From: Longimicrobium sp.
GTDB taxonomy: Bacteria; Gemmatimonadota; Gemmatimonadetes; Longimicrobiales; Longimicrobiaceae
Direction of reading: 5' to 3'
NCBI RefSeq assembly: GCF_035474595.1
Contig: NZ_DATIND010000157.1
Coordinates: forward strand, 1-52,221
Length of the DNA stretch: 52,221 bases
The notes beneath the pieces were generated by a model. The model worked only from the letters and a program-made list of their open reading frames with translations, had not been told where the DNA came from and ran no database searches. How positions within the stretch are numbered: the first letter of the stretch is position 1; each line of letters begins with the position of its first letter. The translations under genes were made by a program, and so were the position numbers. Positions 9,061-42,338 of the stretch are shown piece by piece.

Positions 9061-9969
9061 TTCCGGCCTCGGCCTCCCACCTTCCCGGCCTTCTCCACCC
9101 GGCGCCATTCCGCCCCCGATCCGCTCCTCCATCCACCCCAGCAGGTCCGCGATCGGCCGGGCGCGGTCCAGCTCGTTCAGCGACTCGTGGTGGAAGCCGG
9201 GGTAGCGCCGCACCGTCACGTCGCCGCGCAGGCTCTCCGCGAAGCGCAGCGTGGCCTCCTCGCGCACGATGGTGTCGGCGCCGGGGACGACGAAGAGGAG
9301 CGGGAGGGAGATGCGGTCCTTCTCCGCGAAGGCGTCGCGCATCGCCCCCACCATCTCGGTGTACAGCCGCGGCGAGATCTTGTCGTGGACGAGCGGGTCC
9401 TCGCGGTACGAGCGGGTGTACGCGGAGTCGCTGGACAGCTCGGCCGGGTCCACCTCGTTGGGGATGGGGATCCACGGCAGCGCCTTCGACAGGAAGCCCG
9501 AGAGCGCCGTCTTCCACCGCGCCGCCTGCTTGGCGATCCCCAGCAGCGGCGCGGAAAGGATCGCCCCGCAGAGCTCCGCGCGCGGCCGCGTCTCCAGCCA
9601 GCGGATGCCGATCAATCCCCCCAGCGAGTGCGCGAGGAGGAAGACGGGGACGTCCCGCGGCGCACGCTCCATCACCCCGGCGGCGAAGCGGTCGAAGTCG
9701 TCCACCAGCTTCCCGAAGCGCGCGGTGTGGCCGCGAATCCCCCTCGATCTACCATGCCCGCGGTGGTCGAGCGCGTGCACCTCGATGCCGCGCGGCGCCA
9801 GGTCGCGGGCCACCGCGGCGTAGCGCCCGGCGTGCTCGCCCAGGCCGTGGCTCAGCAGGAGCACGGCGCGCGGGCGTTCCACGGGCCAGGAAAGGGAATG
9901 GAGGCGAAGGCCGTCCGCGGCCCGGAATTCCGACGAGGCGTCGGGCGGCGGAAGGAGCCCGTCGCTCAC
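9052..9969 (-). CDS. alpha/beta hydrolase, monoacylglycerol lipase-like
   Basis: 305-residue serine hydrolase of the lysophospholipase/monoglyceride lipase group (Hydrolase_4). Seen: the oxyanion HGLGEHAGRY (41-50), the DHRGHGRSRG loop, the nucleophile elbow AHSLGG with Ser115, an acid in VPGADTIV and the C-terminal His in YPGFHHESLNE. The start is GTG at 9969, only 8 bases beyond the pgsA stop, so it is the last gene of the mglB-mglA-pgsA run. With pgsA beside it, a role in lipid turnover is a fair guess. The last residues (GREGGRPRPEGE) are read through the edge of a family B repeat, suggesting that the repeat supplied or replaced the native stop. Confidence 0.85.
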   Translation of the reverse strand: MSDGLLPPPDASSEFRAADGLRLHSLSWPVERPRAVLLLSHGLGEHAGRYAAVARDLAPRGIEVHALDHRGHGRSRGIRGHTARFGKLVDDFDRFAAGVMERAPRDVPVFLLAHSLGGLIGIRWLETRPRAELCGAILSAPLLGIAKQAARWKTALSGFLSKALPWIPIPNEVDPAELSSDSAYTRSYREDPLVHDKISPRLYTEMVGAMRDAFAEKDRISLPLLFVVPGADTIVREEATLRFAESLRGDVTVRRYPGFHHESLNELDRARPIADLLGWMEERIGGGMAPGGEGREGGRPRPEGE

Positions 9970-36219: not shown

Positions 36220-37158
36220 TCACGGCGTCGCACAGGGGTGGTCGCGGCTGATGAGCCTGGGGAGCGGGTATTCCGCCATCTCAGCATCCTCCCAGTGCAC
36301 GCATCCCATCTCGTACGCCTGCGGGACCGAGCACCCGGCCGCGAGCGCCTGGTAAAAGCCGCGCGAGAACTTGATCGCCGACTCGTCGGGGAGCTCGCCC
36401 GCGGTGCCGATCACGTAGGGGACATGCTGCGCGATCGCGCACGCCTGCGGCTCCGAGTAGCAGGAGTTCAGCACCACGCATTCGACCTTGAACGGCAGCC
36501 TGCGGAACAGCCCCCGCAGCCGCTCCCCCGACATCGGCCGTGCGTAGCCACCCTCGTCTTCCAGGAACAGCCCCTCGTCCTCGTTGCCGTGGCCGCTGAA
36601 GTGGAGGATGCGGGGCGTCTGCTCCAGCAGCCCGCGCGTCAGGTCCGGCAGCCGCACGGAAAGCCAGAGATGAACCGCCCAGCGATCGCGGAGGCGGCCG
36701 AGCTGGATGGCTTCGCTGATCTCGCGCGCCTCCTGCCCCACCCTGAGCGCCACCAGGTCACGGGGATCCGCGCCAGCCACGAGGATGTTGTCCGGCGGCG
36801 GAGCGTCCGCGTCCCGGGCGCGATGTCCGCCGCCGATGATCACGTCCCGCCCGGCGACGGTGGTCTGGTTCCCGTTCCCGACGACGTGCACCTGCACCCC
36901 GGCCGAGGCGGGCGGAAACGCGCGCAGGATGTTCCCCGCCATCCAGTCGGCCGCCGCCGCGTCGCGGAGCGCTTCGGCGACGCGCGGGACGCTCCCCTCC
37001 GCGTCCGCCCGCGCGGCGTCCGACAGCGTGGCGCGCGTGTCCGCGTCCAGCGTCTTCTCCAGCCGGCTGCAGAGCAGCCGCTGCGGCGCGTCCATCTCCT
37101 CCCGCTGCCAATACGCGATCAGCGCCTTTGCGGCCGCATCCGCCGGGTCGATGCTCAT
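36220..37158 (-). CDS. CHAT-domain protein (caspase-like) with VAGRD motif
   Basis: 312 residues. Residues 1-85 form a small helical domain, possibly a death-like adaptor. The short strand-rich motif VQVHVVGNGNQTTVAGRDVI (89-108) comes next. The CHAT domain (about 125-312) contains the catalytic pair of the caspase-HetF-type fold: His190 in ILHFSGHGNEDEGLF and Cys233 in CVVLNSCYSEPQA. It continues with VIGTAGELPDESAIKFSRGF and YQALAAGCSVPQAYEMG. CHAT proteases are effectors in several bacterial conflict and programmed-death systems. The gene follows the 892-residue protein with a 14-base gap; that protein carries the same VAGRD motif, so the two probably act together. Confidence 0.86.
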   Translation of the reverse strand: MSIDPADAAAKALIAYWQREEMDAPQRLLCSRLEKTLDADTRATLSDAARADAEGSVPRVAEALRDAAAADWMAGNILRAFPPASAGVQVHVVGNGNQTTVAGRDVIIGGGHRARDADAPPPDNILVAGADPRDLVALRVGQEAREISEAIQLGRLRDRWAVHLWLSVRLPDLTRGLLEQTPRILHFSGHGNEDEGLFLEDEGGYARPMSGERLRGLFRRLPFKVECVVLNSCYSEPQACAIAQHVPYVIGTAGELPDESAIKFSRGFYQALAAGCSVPQAYEMGCVHWEDAEMAEYPLPRLISRDHPCATP

Positions 37159-37172
37159 CGAACACTCTTTCT

Positions 37173-39851
37173 TCAGAAGATTTCAAGCAGGAGGATGACG
37201 ATGAAGATGATGAGGAGGGCGACGAGAAGCGCCCCGCCGAAGTACCACGCCAGGGCGATGCGGAGGATGCGGGCGACGTCGCGCGGGCGGCTGCCGACGC
37301 GCATCGCCTCCCACCGCGCGAGGACGTTGCTCAGCGCCAACGGGCGATGCGTCCGCTGCGCCAGCGCCTCGGGAAGGAGGCCGCGGACCACCGGCCGGAA
37401 CGCCGGCGCACGCACCGTCGCCAGCCAGGGAACGAGCCCGCCGCCGTACCATCCCGGCGCCGATGGCGGCGCCGGAAGCGCCGCCGCGTCCCACGGCCGC
37501 GGTGCGGTGTCCGCGCGGCGCCGCTCGTCGCGGATGCGGGCGATCTCGTCCGCGATCGCCCCGTCCAGCGTCTCCGCGAACGCCACCGCCGCGCGCAGGG
37601 CGATGCGCTGCGCCGCGGGCGCAGACGCGTCCTGCATCCAGCGCAGCATCGCCCGCTCGACGGGCGTGGTCTCGCGCGAGCCCTCTGTCCACGCCGCGTA
37701 CGTCCGCCCGCCGACCTCCACCTCCGCGTCGCCGCCCTTCATTCCCTCCCGCTCCGCCCGGTAGACGTCGGCCAGCGCCAGCGCGATCCGCTCCCGCTCG
37801 CGCCCGGTGAGATCGCCCGCCAGCGCCCGCACCATCGGCTCCACGTGGCCGAAGCGCGTCCGCACCTGCCGCGCCACCGCGTGCACGGCCGCGCTCCGCA
37901 CCCGCGGATGCCGCTCCGTGGCCAGGATCTGCCTCAGCCGCGCGAACCCGTCCTCCGCGCGCACCGGGCTCCCCTCGCCGTACGGCAGCTCGCCGTACGT
38001 GTACGCCAGCACCATCAGCAGCGCCTCCCGCTCCCCCGCCCTGCCGGCGCCGGGCGTCCACCGCGAGACCTCGAGATGCCACTCGTCCAGCGTCGCCCCG
38101 ACGTCGTCGGGAAGGGTGGGCGATGCCTGCGCCAGGCTCGCTCCGATCGCGAACGCGAGATCGGAGCGGCGCGCCAGCCCGCGGAGCGTGGGCCGCAGCT
38201 GCGCGACGTGCAGCCGCACCATCTTCGGCAGCGTGTACCGCGCGAAGCGCTCGCGCACGATCCGGTTGCGGTCGCCGGCCAGCTCCTTCATCAGCGTGAC
38301 CAGGTCCGGCTTCAGCCCGCCCGGCGGGTCGTACTCCGACGCGAAACCCAGCGCCAGCGCCACGGTGGCGCGGATCTGCGCGTGCGCGCCGCCGCTCTTC
38401 CGCTCGTCGCGCCCGGCCAGCAGCGACTCCACGATCCCGCGGATGCGCGCATCCCGCTGCCAGCGCTTCAGCAGCGCGAAGAACCGCGCCTCCGCCTCGC
38501 CGCCCCGAAGCCGCCACCCCGCCACCGCCGCGGCGGCCACCCCCTGCACGTCTGCGTCGGCATCGCTGGCCAGCTCGAGCAGCGCGGGCTCCACCCCGGC
38601 GGGCGACAGGAGCCCCAGCTCGCCCAGCGCCCCGGTGACCGCGCGCCGCACCCGCAGCCGTTCCCCCGGCGAGCCGTACAGCTCCCGGTCGCCCCCGCGC
38701 CCTTCCGCCGAGTCGGCGGCCAGGCGGGTGAGCACGTCCAGCGCGCCCAGCATCTGCCGGCGGTGCCCGTCCCATCCGGCGCGCAGGATGAACGCGCGCT
38801 GATCGGGCCACCGCGGCTCCCATCGAATCCCCCCGTCCGCCGTCTCCACCCGCGCGAAGAAGTCCTCCAGGCGCGCCACGTCGGCGTAGTCGAACGAGCG
38901 CTGGCGCGGGTCGCGGCGCTCGCGGATGTCCGCGACCCACCGCTCCATCGCCGCGAAGAACTGGTCGTCCGGAAGCCCCTCGAAGAACGCCATGCCGAGC
39001 GCCAGCAGCCGTTCGTCGTCGGACCGCGGGGGCGTGTTGAACCACCTCCGGATGGGAACCGCGGGACTGGTGATGGCATCGGCCAGCGACTCGATCCCCT
39101 CGCGTTCCAGCCCCCCGCTCCGCGCCCGCTGCAGCAGCCGCCGGCCGAACTCCTCCACGTTCGGCGGCGTCCGCAGCCGCTCTGCGATCTCGCGCAGCGC
39201 CAGCCCGCACAGCGTCGAGTCTCCGGGCTCGTACGCCTCCTCGTAAGCGCCGTCGCCCAGCGCCCCGCGGATGTCGCCCAACTCGTGCAGAAGGACGGTG
39301 AGGAGCGTGTCGGAGTCGAAGAGCCGGTCGGGCGCGATCTCGTGCCAGAAGGCGTCCTGTCCAGGCGTCAGGTTCCACTCGCGGTGCCGGCGGTCGGTCG
39401 TGGCGATCACCCACTGGCGCGCCCGTGCGGCGTCGGAGCGCAGGCGCGGGAGATTCCAGTCCACCTGCTGCGGGAGGATGCCGGAGAGGAGCACCACCGC
39501 GCTCTCCTTGCGCCGCATCCCGCGCAGCAGCGCGTCCAGCCCGCCCTCCCCCGCCCACTCCAGCACCGGCACCTGCTCGCGCGACGCCAGATCCACCGCC
39601 ACGTGGCGCGCCACCCGCGCCTTGTCTTCGTACGCGCCGGCCAGCACCAGCAGCCGCTGGTCGGCGAGCTGCCGCACCAGATCGCCCACGGCGCGCGGCG
39701 CCGCCTCGCCGCGGACCGCGTCCGCGTCCAGCCGGACGAACTCCTCGGCGGCCATCTGCACGTACAGGTCACGCCCGGCGACCTGCGTCACGTTCGCGCC
39801 ACCCTCCACCCACACGTCCACGCCGGCCGCGTACTCGTCATCACTCGTCAT
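37173..39851 (-). CDS. 892-residue membrane-anchored helical-repeat protein, CHAT partner
   Basis: The N-terminus carries VDVWVEGGANVTQVAGRDLY (11-30), the same motif as in the CHAT protein. A degenerate STAND/AAA-like module follows: LVLAGAYEDKARVARHVAVD lacks the P-loop glycine and Ser/Thr; a Walker-B-like SAVVLLSGIL and WVIATTDRR are present. The large middle (about 250-830) is all-helical with HEAT-like repeats (for example ALGELGLLSPAGVEPALLEL and GVAAAAVAGWRLRGGEAEAR). The last residues form one transmembrane helix, GALLVALLIIFIVILLLEIF. Predicted role: membrane-bound sensor or scaffold for the CHAT protease. No known family name can be given. No Shine-Dalgarno is clear at ATG 39851. 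Confidence 0.72.
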   Translation of the reverse strand: MTSDDEYAAGVDVWVEGGANVTQVAGRDLYVQMAAEEFVRLDADAVRGEAAPRAVGDLVRQLADQRLLVLAGAYEDKARVARHVAVDLASREQVPVLEWAGEGGLDALLRGMRRKESAVVLLSGILPQQVDWNLPRLRSDAARARQWVIATTDRRHREWNLTPGQDAFWHEIAPDRLFDSDTLLTVLLHELGDIRGALGDGAYEEAYEPGDSTLCGLALREIAERLRTPPNVEEFGRRLLQRARSGGLEREGIESLADAITSPAVPIRRWFNTPPRSDDERLLALGMAFFEGLPDDQFFAAMERWVADIRERRDPRQRSFDYADVARLEDFFARVETADGGIRWEPRWPDQRAFILRAGWDGHRRQMLGALDVLTRLAADSAEGRGGDRELYGSPGERLRVRRAVTGALGELGLLSPAGVEPALLELASDADADVQGVAAAAVAGWRLRGGEAEARFFALLKRWQRDARIRGIVESLLAGRDERKSGGAHAQIRATVALALGFASEYDPPGGLKPDLVTLMKELAGDRNRIVRERFARYTLPKMVRLHVAQLRPTLRGLARRSDLAFAIGASLAQASPTLPDDVGATLDEWHLEVSRWTPGAGRAGEREALLMVLAYTYGELPYGEGSPVRAEDGFARLRQILATERHPRVRSAAVHAVARQVRTRFGHVEPMVRALAGDLTGRERERIALALADVYRAEREGMKGGDAEVEVGGRTYAAWTEGSRETTPVERAMLRWMQDASAPAAQRIALRAAVAFAETLDGAIADEIARIRDERRRADTAPRPWDAAALPAPPSAPGWYGGGLVPWLATVRAPAFRPVVRGLLPEALAQRTHRPLALSNVLARWEAMRVGSRPRDVARILRIALAWYFGGALLVALLIIFIVILLLEIF

Positions 39852-39953: not shown

Positions 39954-39992
39954 CCGAGCCCCCGCTCCGCGGAAGGCGGAACGGGGGCTCGG
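39954..39992 (-). terminator. terminator of RiPP-like gene 1
   Basis: Arms CCGAGCCCCCG / CGGGGGCTCGG plus an inner CTCCGC/GGCGGA pairing, 58 bases past the stop of the small peptide gene on the minus strand. Confidence 0.75.
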
Positions 39993-40050: not shown

Positions 40051-40284
40051 CTACGCCCAGTCTCCCGTGACGGGGACCGTCGGGCCGCACGAGCAGGTCT
40101 CGATGGGCTCGCAGGTGCACGGGCCCTGGGTGGCCATGCAGTCGCTGTCCGCCGCGGCGATCGGAGCCACGAGCTGCGCGGCCGCATCCAGGTTGGCGCG
40201 CACGGTCCCGATCGCGCCGCCGCGGGCACCGGTCACGAACGACTGCACCTCCAGCGTCTCCAGCTTCAGCTGCAACTTGCGCAC
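40051..40284 (-). CDS. pinensin-type RiPP precursor-like peptide 1
   Basis: 77 residues from GTG 40284, which has GGAGGAGCCC directly upstream. The leader MRKLQLKLETLEVQSFVT fits the L-x-L-x-x-L-x-V-[EQ]-S-F-x-T pattern of pinensin-family lanthipeptide precursors, and a GTV motif follows (GAIGTVRAN). The last ~33 residues are rich in Cys, Thr and Ser (DSDCMATQGPCTCEPIETCS then CGP), with five cysteines. No lanthionine synthetase is in the window, so modification is unproved; similar orphan peptides are common in this group. Second copy of the leader type at 42118-42255. Confidence 0.72.
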   Translation of the reverse strand: MRKLQLKLETLEVQSFVTGARGGAIGTVRANLDAAAQLVAPIAAADSDCMATQGPCTCEPIETCSCGPTVPVTGDWA

Positions 40285-40533
40285 GGGCTCCTCCGGGAGA
40301 GGGGGATAAGAGAGGGATACGGATAATGTCGATATCTTCGCCCCCGAGCGGAAGCGCCACGCGGGCGATGCGGGCGCGGACAGCACCCGAACCGCCAATC
40401 TGGAGGTGTTCGATCCCGTCCGCGTGAGCGAGGAGATTCGTCCACGGAGCACTCATTCGGCCACCAGCGGCACACATCCGTGCAACCGGGCGTACAACGG
40501 CGAGTGTACCGAACAAACGCCGAATATCGCCCG

Positions 40534-41304
40534 ATGACCTTCATCCCCCCGCAACTGCTCACCTCGGCCAAGTCTCCGCCCGCCGGCGAAGGCTGGCTGA
40601 ACGAGGTGAAGTACGACGGCTATCGCCTCCTCGCCCGCATCGCGGTTGGGCGCGTGCGGCTGTACACGCGACAGGGGAACGACTGGACCGCGCGCCTGCC
40701 GGCCATCGCCGCGGCCGTGGCGGAGCTGGGGCTGGAGCGCGGCTACCTGGACGGCGAGCTCGTCGCCGTCGGCGCGGACGGCCTCCCCGACTTCGACCTC
40801 CTGCACCGCGCGATGCGCGGCGGCCGCCGTGCCCCGCCGCTCATCTACCACGTGTTCGACGTGCTGCAGCTCGGCGGCCGCGATCTCTTCGCGTCACCCC
40901 TGCGCACGCGCAAGGAGATCGCCGCCGGGCTGCTCGCGGGGCGCGGGGGCCCGATCCGCTACGTGGAGCACGTGGCGGACACCGGCGCCGAGCTCTGGGC
41001 CGAGGCGCGCGCGCTGGGCATCGAGGGGATCGTCTGCAAGCGCGCCGGCAGCGGCTACCGCCCCGGCGTGCGCGGGCGCGAGTGGCTGAAGGTGAAGTGC
41101 TTTCACCGCTACCGCCTCACCATCGCCGCGGTCCGCGCGGACGGCGTGGCCGTGGTCGATCGCGATGGCACCGCCGCCGGAACCGTCCCCGTCTACTCGC
41201 GCCGCGTCACCGCCACGCTCGCCCCCGGCGTGGAGGTCGAAGTCCAGGCGCTCGCCTGGCGCCCCGGCCGCAAGCTCCGCCACGCCCGCCTGCTCCTCGA
41301 CTAG
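40534..41304 (+). CDS. ATP-dependent DNA ligase, LigD-type ligase domain
   Basis: 256 residues. Nucleotidyltransferase core: Lys26 of motif I in NEVKYDGYRLLARI, motif III-like YLDGELVAVG, LIYHVFDVLQLGGRDLF, motif IV GIEGIVCKRAGSGYRPG and motif V REWLKVKC, then a short OB-fold tail (VPVYSRRVTATLAPGVEVEV). It matches the ligase module of LigD (NHEJ) without the polymerase or phosphoesterase domains, or a small stand-alone ligase. No Ku gene is nearby. ATG 40534 chosen by the MTFIPPQLL start. It is followed by a bidirectional terminator. Confidence 0.86.
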   Translation: MTFIPPQLLTSAKSPPAGEGWLNEVKYDGYRLLARIAVGRVRLYTRQGNDWTARLPAIAAAVAELGLERGYLDGELVAVGADGLPDFDLLHRAMRGGRRAPPLIYHVFDVLQLGGRDLFASPLRTRKEIAAGLLAGRGGPIRYVEHVADTGAELWAEARALGIEGIVCKRAGSGYRPGVRGREWLKVKCFHRYRLTIAAVRADGVAVVDRDGTAAGTVPVYSRRVTATLAPGVEVEVQALAWRPGRKLRHARLLLD

Positions 41305-41321
41305 TGGTCAGCGGACGCACG

Positions 41322-41354
41322 AAGCCCCGCCTGCGAGTACCGCCGGCGGGGCTT
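41322..41354. terminator. bidirectional terminator after DNA ligase
   Basis: Perfect 10-bp arms AAGCCCCGCC / GGCGGGGCTT around a 13-base loop, between convergent genes. Confidence 0.8.
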
Positions 41355-41385
41355 GAGGGAGATGCGGATTCGTCGCTCGCGCGGA

Positions 41386-41919
41386 TCAGGATGGAGGCGG
41401 TGGCGGCGCGAGGACCGGCGCCCGCGCCGACGGATCGTATCCGAACGGCCGCACCGCCCACTCCCATCGCTCGCGCGGCGCGGACGATCCCCACGCCGCG
41501 CCGATCGCGCCGCCGACCACCGCTCCGCCCCCGCCGAACAAAGCGATGCGGCCGCCGGCGCTCCCCTCGCCCGGGATCAGCAGCCCGGCGATCGCGCCCA
41601 AGCCGCCCCCGACGAACGCCAGGAGTCCCGCGCGGCTGGCCGCGCTCCCACCCGCCGTCCGCCCGCGCGAGATCTCGAGCAGCTGGATGCTGTGCAGCGG
41701 AAACGACTGCTCCGTCCCCGTCGCCTCGTCGCGCACCACCAGCTGCGCGGTGTCGAACCGCGTCACCTGGCCCGTCACCTTGTCCGGCCGGACCGGCGGC
41801 GCGGTCACCCGCACCCGCGCGTCCAGCAGCTGGCGCGTCTGCGCCCCAGCCACTGCCGGAAGCGACACCATCGCCAGCGCGAGCAGGAAAGCAGCGAGTA
41901 TCCCACGCAGCACGTTCAT
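41386..41919 (-). CDS. exported glycine-rich protein
   Basis: 177 residues. Signal peptide MNVLRGILAAFLLALAMVSL ... AVAGA. A strand-rich domain follows (RVRVTAPPVRPDKVTGQVTR, TAQLVVRDEATGTEQSFPLH), then a Gly-zipper-like membrane segment, LLAFVGGGLGAIAGLLIPGE with GRIALFGGGGAVVGGAIGAA. The first part looks like the bacterial SH3/LSm-like 'G.V......L.l' motif seen in small Gemmatimonadota envelope proteins. Function unknown. ATG 41919 follows GACGAGGG; an ATG at 41943 would place an odd tail before the signal. Confidence 0.7.
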   Translation of the reverse strand: MNVLRGILAAFLLALAMVSLPAVAGAQTRQLLDARVRVTAPPVRPDKVTGQVTRFDTAQLVVRDEATGTEQSFPLHSIQLLEISRGRTAGGSAASRAGLLAFVGGGLGAIAGLLIPGEGSAGGRIALFGGGGAVVGGAIGAAWGSSAPRERWEWAVRPFGYDPSARAPVLAPPPPPS

Positions 41920-42004
41920 CCCTCGTCCGATCGCGGGTTCCATGCGCCTGAGAAGGAGCGGACGCGGGGCGTGCAAGACACACGCCCTCCGGATGGCAGA
42001 AACG

Positions 42005-42043
42005 ACGAAGCGCCCGTCGCGGATGACCGCGCGGGCGCTTCGT
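42005..42043 (-). terminator. terminator of RiPP-like gene 2 / tRNA-like fragment
   Basis: Perfect arms ACGAAGCGCCCG / CGGGCGCTTCGT. On the minus strand it lies just past the tRNA-3'-end-like sequence (42047-42067), the same arrangement as at 44842-44903. Confidence 0.75.
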
Positions 42044-42046
42044 CTG

Positions 42047-42067
42047 GATGGGCCGGGGAGGACTCGA
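42047..42067 (-). repeat. tRNA-3'-end-like direct repeat, left copy
   Basis: GATGGGCCGGGGAGGACTCG+A matches 44883-44903 at 19 of 21 positions, same orientation. On the minus strand it reads as the T-loop/acceptor end of a tRNA (TCGAGTCCTCCC..GCCCA). The rest of the T stem is not paired, so it is a remnant, possibly an attachment-site half. Confidence 0.55.
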
Positions 42068-42117
42068 CCCGGCTGCCTTGCCGCGTCCGCCGTCGTTCTG
42101 CGGGCTGCAGCGGTGGC

Positions 42118-42255
42118 TCAGCCGCAGGCGAGGGGGCAGCTGAGGATGCAGGAGCGGTCGTAGGTCGGCGGCACCTCCGCCATCCGGGCCTCGGCAGCGC
42201 AGGTGCCGAACGACTCCACGCGCAGGCTGTCCAGGTCCAGGCGAAGCGTCTTCAT
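42118..42255 (-). CDS. pinensin-type RiPP precursor-like peptide 2
   Basis: 45 residues. Leader MKTLRLDLDSLRVESFGT matches the leader of the first peptide gene (L-x-L-x-x-L-x-V-[EQ]-S-F-x-T). The C-terminal part is short with several Ser and Cys (TYDRSCILSCPLACG). The ATG at 42255 is preceded by AAAGGATCC at a workable distance, and a terminator follows 75 bases after the stop. It is shorter than usual precursors and lacks the GTV block, so it may be a decayed or minimal member. It lies inside the putative degenerate mobile element. No modifying enzyme is seen nearby. Confidence 0.62.
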   Translation of the reverse strand: MKTLRLDLDSLRVESFGTCAAEARMAEVPPTYDRSCILSCPLACG

Positions 42256-42338
42256 GGGAGGATCCTTTGAGTGAGAGTTCCGAAACGGCGAAGCGGAGCT
42301 CCCAGTTTACGCAACAACTTGCGTTTCGTCCATCCTCA

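Follow-up and report, generated by a model that had tools for sequence, protein, structure and literature searches.

We analyzed a 52,221-nucleotide stretch of Longimicrobium sp. DNA (the window), which corresponds to contig C157 of a draft genome assembly (6.57 Mb, 163 contigs, 96.85% complete, 3.95% contamination). Two short ORFs with similar N-terminal leaders were identified on its minus strand. Gene A (positions 40051..40284) encodes a 77-aa peptide with a GTG start, in which the leader occupies approximately residues 1-28 (MRKLQLKLETLEVQSFVTGARGGAIGTV) and the core, containing five Cys, approximately residues 31-77. Gene B (42118..42255) encodes a 45-aa peptide with an ATG start, a leader that lacks the GTV motif, and a short C-terminal end with SC-SC-AC. 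Both genes are preceded on the same strand by ribosome-binding sites assigned by reading the sequence (GGAGGAG at 40285..40300 for gene A; AAAGGA at 42256..42268 for gene B). The original prediction described two ORFs of one leader type that end in Cys/Ser/Thr-containing segments and lie 1.8 kb apart, with two unrelated genes between them. This arrangement was reproduced: the 18-residue leaders align without gaps, both peptides are among the cores with at least two Cys plus dehydratable Ser/Thr, and the measured distance of 1.83 kb is occupied by an ATP-dependent DNA ligase-domain gene (plus strand) and a minus-strand gene that matches nothing in Pfam. The ligase neighbor of gene A has a counterpart in the related genome G306, where a nearby leader-like ORF is weak (15 bits only).

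The two genes were also supposed to have their own terminators. A strong hairpin is indeed located downstream of each, at 39954..39992 for gene A (17-nt arms, 5-nt loop) and at 42004..42044 for gene B (perfect 13-nt arms), but no T-tract terminators were found downstream of genes A and B, and the role of these hairpins as possible terminators remains weakly supported. In agreement with the reported absence of modification enzymes, no lanthipeptide enzyme was found within the window. Other genes on the minus strand of the window include a CHAT-domain protein gene beside a gene for an 892-aa protein without a Pfam match (36220-39851); a TxVAGRD motif occurs in both of them near the N-terminal half, and they possibly constitute a signalling or defence pair. 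Where the contig ends (45436-52220, minus strand), polyketide synthase genes adjoin a gene for an MFS transporter and are part of a separate natural-product cluster.

The leaders of genes A and B had been assigned by eye to the pinensin type. Gene A supports this assignment at a curated threshold, scoring 26 bits against the NCBIfam model NF038180 (pinensin family lanthipeptide leader; cut-off 24), and gene B fails it with 11.8 bits. We built a family profile from 75 leaders among the NF038180 matches of the genome. Gene B, which was not used in building this profile, matches it with 29.7 bits (E 2.7e-7); gene A scores 42.8 bits and is itself part of the alignment. The pinensin-type assignment of gene B, one of the 24 of 170 family members without the GTV motif, is supported by the family profile only. 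A Pfam search with both peptides gave nothing useful.

Searching the whole genome with NF038180 yielded 127 matches. All of them were translated, and 126 proved to be short ORFs (45-124 aa) in which the common leader precedes a Cys-rich end; at least 19 precursors of the genome exceed the curated cut-off. The family profile produced at least 150 matches, all with E <1e-8. A local scan of 774 kb of genome DNA identified 170 precursors, and 22 more were confirmed outside the scanned DNA, giving a catalogue of 192. An independent search with the DNA pattern V-[ED]-[ST]-F...G-T-V returned 115 matches in the genome and none in the reversed control. Together with the profile score of gene B and the lack of matches in 288 of 298 genomes of the phylum (see below), this places the leader similarity of the two genes far above what chance would give. 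Since mark-recapture with this pattern gives an estimate of ~186 precursors, the catalogue looks nearly complete. Two candidates, the NF038180 match at C22:15665 and the pattern match at C25:75366, were rejected as not being precursors. The 192 precursors are distributed over ~110 places on 56 contigs, 78 of these places being solitary and the largest arrays containing 8-9 genes. This pattern comes from a fragmented draft assembly with ~4% contamination, and it recurs in relatives with 1-3% contamination. The genome-wide leader search that had been suggested as a check is therefore positive, with ~190 leaders, and the original prediction understated the case: genes A and B belong to a very large family dispersed over the genome rather than forming an orphan pair on their own.

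Several features indicate whether the members of this family are genes. A ribosome-binding site is located upstream of 91% of precursors, as compared with 12.6% of random control positions. The cores contain 14.3% Cys versus 0.7% in ordinary proteins encoded by this genome, with a median of ~6 Cys per core; at least two Cys follow the leader in all 170 analyzed precursors, Ser/Thr are present in 169 of the 170 cores, and 93% of core Cys are preceded by Ser/Thr at a distance of 2-7 residues. The leaders (consensus MKKLxLxLDxLxVESFxT...GTV) are conserved and the cores are variable, as random precursor pairs share 48% of residues in the leader and 32% in the core. Some cores contain near-perfect internal repeats, such as GGATQCGGVQTCGGGC or repeated CGST. 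Cores of this kind were observed in the precursors at positions 9732 and 13071 of contig C119 (locus L105), as well as in loci L140 and L142, which suggests growth via slippage or duplication.

Search of the genome for split LanB-type dehydratases, the second check suggested for the two genes, revealed LanB-N, LanB-C and LanC genes. Because these genes are present, on contig C23 and outside the window, a genome without LanB/LanC-type enzymes, which would have argued against the original prediction, is ruled out. In the C23 operon, LanB-N and LanB-C are accompanied by LanC (683 aa), a set of six precursors, and genes for an ABC exporter, HlyD, and a subtilase (S8). The domains PF04738 and PF14028 are encoded by separate ORFs, i.e. 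LanB is split. Conserved motifs are retained in three of these proteins: HMxxNR is intact in LanB-C, the CHG zinc motifs of LanC are intact at residues 313 and 360, and the Asp/His/Ser motifs are present in the subtilase. Among solved structures, LanB-C is related to the lantibiotic dehydratase 5ehk and to NisB, and LanB-N to the dehydratase-domain protein 6ec7. The best family of LanC is TIGR03897 (LanM), and its closest solved relative is LicM2.

The C23 LanB-N gene is truncated at the contig end; complete LanB-N was found only in relatives, namely G306, G032 and G224, each of which also has LanB-C. The whole genome contains one LanB-C and two LanB-N fragments. The latter are related and non-identical, and both are cut by contig ends (L113 on contig C4, 13969-16374; L101 on contig C23, 16214-17704). 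They were considered as two ends of one gene, and this was rejected: since there is no exact overlap and identity over the shared protein stretch is only ~77-87%, two copies are likelier. Two LanB-N could mean that the genome has a second maturation system or that the assembly mixes strains, and the latter is not excluded. The operon is conserved in relatives. In G306 the order is LanB-N, LanB-C, LanC, ten precursors, ABC, and HlyD, in which the examined stretch ends; the same order plus the subtilase is observed in G224, which has two precursors, and in G032, which has one. The six C23 operon precursors were compared with their best G306 counterparts. Five pairs look orthologous, and their dN/dS values of 0.18-0.66 indicate purifying selection on the operon precursors, the only ones for which these values were obtained; one pair has an identical 20-residue core. 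Part of a dispersed precursor recurs outside this genome: a 40-residue stretch of the gene A core matches a precursor in G286 (E 3e-6), both ending with GPCTCEPIETC[ST]CG. The flanks of the G286 precursor have no other similarity to the window, i.e. it occupies a different place.

Analysis of 298 genomes of the phylum demonstrated that high leader numbers are confined to the family to which the window belongs. No leader match at E<=0.001 was found in 288 genomes, and ten have any match. The leader counts, all of them lower bounds, are 150 in the studied genome (G000) and G306, 149 in G286, 81 in G032, 75 in G243, 47 in G224, 18 in G304, 11 in G180, 5 in G300, and 1 in G251. Within the family, leaders occur in exactly those 10 of 21 genomes that possess LanB-C, the elimination-domain protein (Fisher p 2.8e-6; this value is uncorrected for relatedness, and presence/absence does vary inside the genus). 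LANC_like genes are found in the same ten genomes plus three without leaders. Outside the phylum, LanB-C homologues of Acidobacteriota, Ignavibacteria/Melioribacteraceae and Bacteroidetes were found to have the pinensin-type leader nearby, which ties the leader to the LanB enzyme pair. The Acidobacteriota and Ignavibacteria/Melioribacteraceae leaders (loci L133-L142) extend beyond Bacteroidetes, where pinensins were described. Several Bacteroidetes leaders have TxxGG at the GTV region (e.g. GTVKGG), and we infer from this correspondence that GTVx[G/A] probably represents a double-Gly cleavage site in degenerate form.

Taken together, these results make it highly probable, in our judgment, that ~190 dispersed precursors of pinensin-type class I lanthipeptides, genes A and B among them, are modified in trans by a shared system. 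The N-terminal leader that the precursors have in common (MKKLxLxLDxLxVESFxT, with GTV after it in most cases) would act as a docking tag, each precursor contributing its own Cys/Thr/Ser-rich core. Ser and Thr of the core would be dehydrated by the split LanB encoded elsewhere, comprising a glutamylating LanB-N and an eliminating LanB-C, after which LanC would couple Cys to the dehydrated residues to form thioether rings. The product may then be exported via the ABC exporter and HlyD, and the leader removed by the subtilase, probably at GTVx[G/A]. One operon, perhaps two, would serve the whole set of ~190 peptides in trans. Expression of genes A and B, their modification in trans, ring formation, the cleavage site, and the export route are all inferred in the absence of expression or chemical data. 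The dispersed precursors are linked to the operon enzymes by leader identity and co-occurrence, not by biochemistry, and the sharing of enzymes remains a prediction. The function of the products has not been shown. Several observations count against this explanation: neither gene A nor gene B is near an enzyme, gene B falls below the curated leader cut-off and lacks GTV, the C23 LanB-N is incomplete, and no shared promoter motif is apparent upstream of the dispersed genes, a k-mer enrichment search having revealed no clear one.

The distance from the enzymes could also mean that only operon-proximal precursors are modified, the dispersed copies, including genes A and B, being silent or decaying duplicates that retained the leader. 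The 78 solitary places far from enzymes, the lack of a common upstream motif, and the restriction of measured purifying selection to operon precursors are all compatible with this scenario. However, neutral decay would not leave ~190 small ORFs intact, and the dispersed ORFs are intact, with a ribosome-binding site in 91% and Cys in every core. In addition, the core motif of gene A is kept in a precursor of another species (G286) at a different place. We regard silencing or decay of the dispersed copies as unlikely.

Two further alternatives accept the dispersed ORFs and dispute their chemistry. The leader might be read by other enzymes, such as the LanM-type synthetases of the genome, or direct a different modification, which would make the family another type of RiPP. 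Further LanC-domain proteins are indeed encoded on contigs C25, C136 and C87; moreover, pinensin-type leaders are known mainly from Bacteroidetes, and the chemistry here is unmeasured. On the other hand, leaders track LanB-C exactly, whereas LANC_like genes also occur in three leaderless genomes, and the leader is found inside the LanB operon and, in other phyla, next to LanB-C homologues. The LanM-like C136 gene, in turn, has its own, different adjacent short ORFs, and another type of RiPP seems very unlikely to us. Alternatively, the products could be unmodified disulfide-rich secreted peptides with the leader serving as an export signal only, as the median of ~6 Cys per core and the exporter and protease in the operon would permit. 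Disulfides do not need the strong placement of Ser/Thr relative to Cys, nor would they account for the exact co-occurrence with a dehydratase domain, and we find this possibility hardly credible.

The C136 locus (L112, 297-4231) encodes a 1082-aa LanM-like LanC-domain protein. Behind it, two short ORFs in tandem carry a leader of another type, HIQFLRG...EEHPIxQLxEEELRVxIGGTDAA, and the locus is apparently a separate class II system of the same genome. Contig C4 (L113, 4749-5442) holds a further family of small repeated ORFs, whose kind is unknown: three tandem ORFs of 55-57 aa with the common start MPRISIQQFRA... lie beside a 320-aa gene.

Among known systems, the family is classified with the pinensin-type class I lanthipeptides. 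It shares with the pinensins of Bacteroidetes the NF038180 leader type, LanB split into glutamylation and elimination proteins, and a LanC resembling the cyclase domains of LanM (PMC7268733). It differs from them in its phylum, in the number of precursors (~190, most of them far from enzymes), in the GTVx[G/A] region in place of TxxGG, and in the operon subtilase and an exporter without the C39 peptidase domain. Precursor-enzyme clustering, a pinensin-type trait, is observed for the six C23 precursors and in the operons of relatives but not for genes A and B; such clustering is not required for processing in trans.

In its organization, the family resembles the class II prochlorosins and synechococsins, whose genome-scattered precursors are served by one enzyme, ProcM or SyncM (PMC10783134, PMC12328550). 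Both comprise many hypervariable precursors with one conserved leader, occurring as scattered singles and tandem arrays, and very few enzymes. However, the prochlorosins have a Nif11-type double-Gly leader and LanM, whereas here an NF038180-type leader is combined with split LanB and LanC, and leaders follow LanB-C across 21 genomes. By this analogy the family would work like the prochlorosins without being a member of that system, as leader and dehydratase are unrelated. Up to 83 precursors per strain were reported there (PMC10783134), and ~190 is over twice this highest published count that we found. The genome note on Longimicrobium terrae, which probably belongs to the same bacterial family, reports three lanthipeptide-type regions identified by antiSMASH and gives clusters only, with no dispersed precursor family (PMC7291104). 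Our literature search, in which subscription journals were mostly not covered, found no paper on such a family in Gemmatimonadota. As NF038180 already recognizes some members, individual genes may be flagged in database annotation; the scale of the family and its link to the enzymes appear undescribed in the literature searchable here.

We are inclined to believe, with less assurance than for genes A and B themselves, that in a Gemmatimonadota family a single class I split LanB/LanC system modifies ~190 dispersed precursors. This would be the most extensive natural set of lanthipeptides known from any one organism and a class I parallel to the prochlorosins, having originated independently with an unrelated leader and dehydratase. 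If this is true, the largest peptide library known to combine one leader with many cores belongs to a phylum that has received little study, and the dehydratase/cyclase pair making it must tolerate ~190 natural substrates, which would provide a class I counterpart to ProcM for building libraries of ring-containing peptides. Mining restricted to enzyme neighborhoods would then overlook most precursors in such genomes, and the purpose of hypervariable repertoires would become testable in a second, independent lineage.
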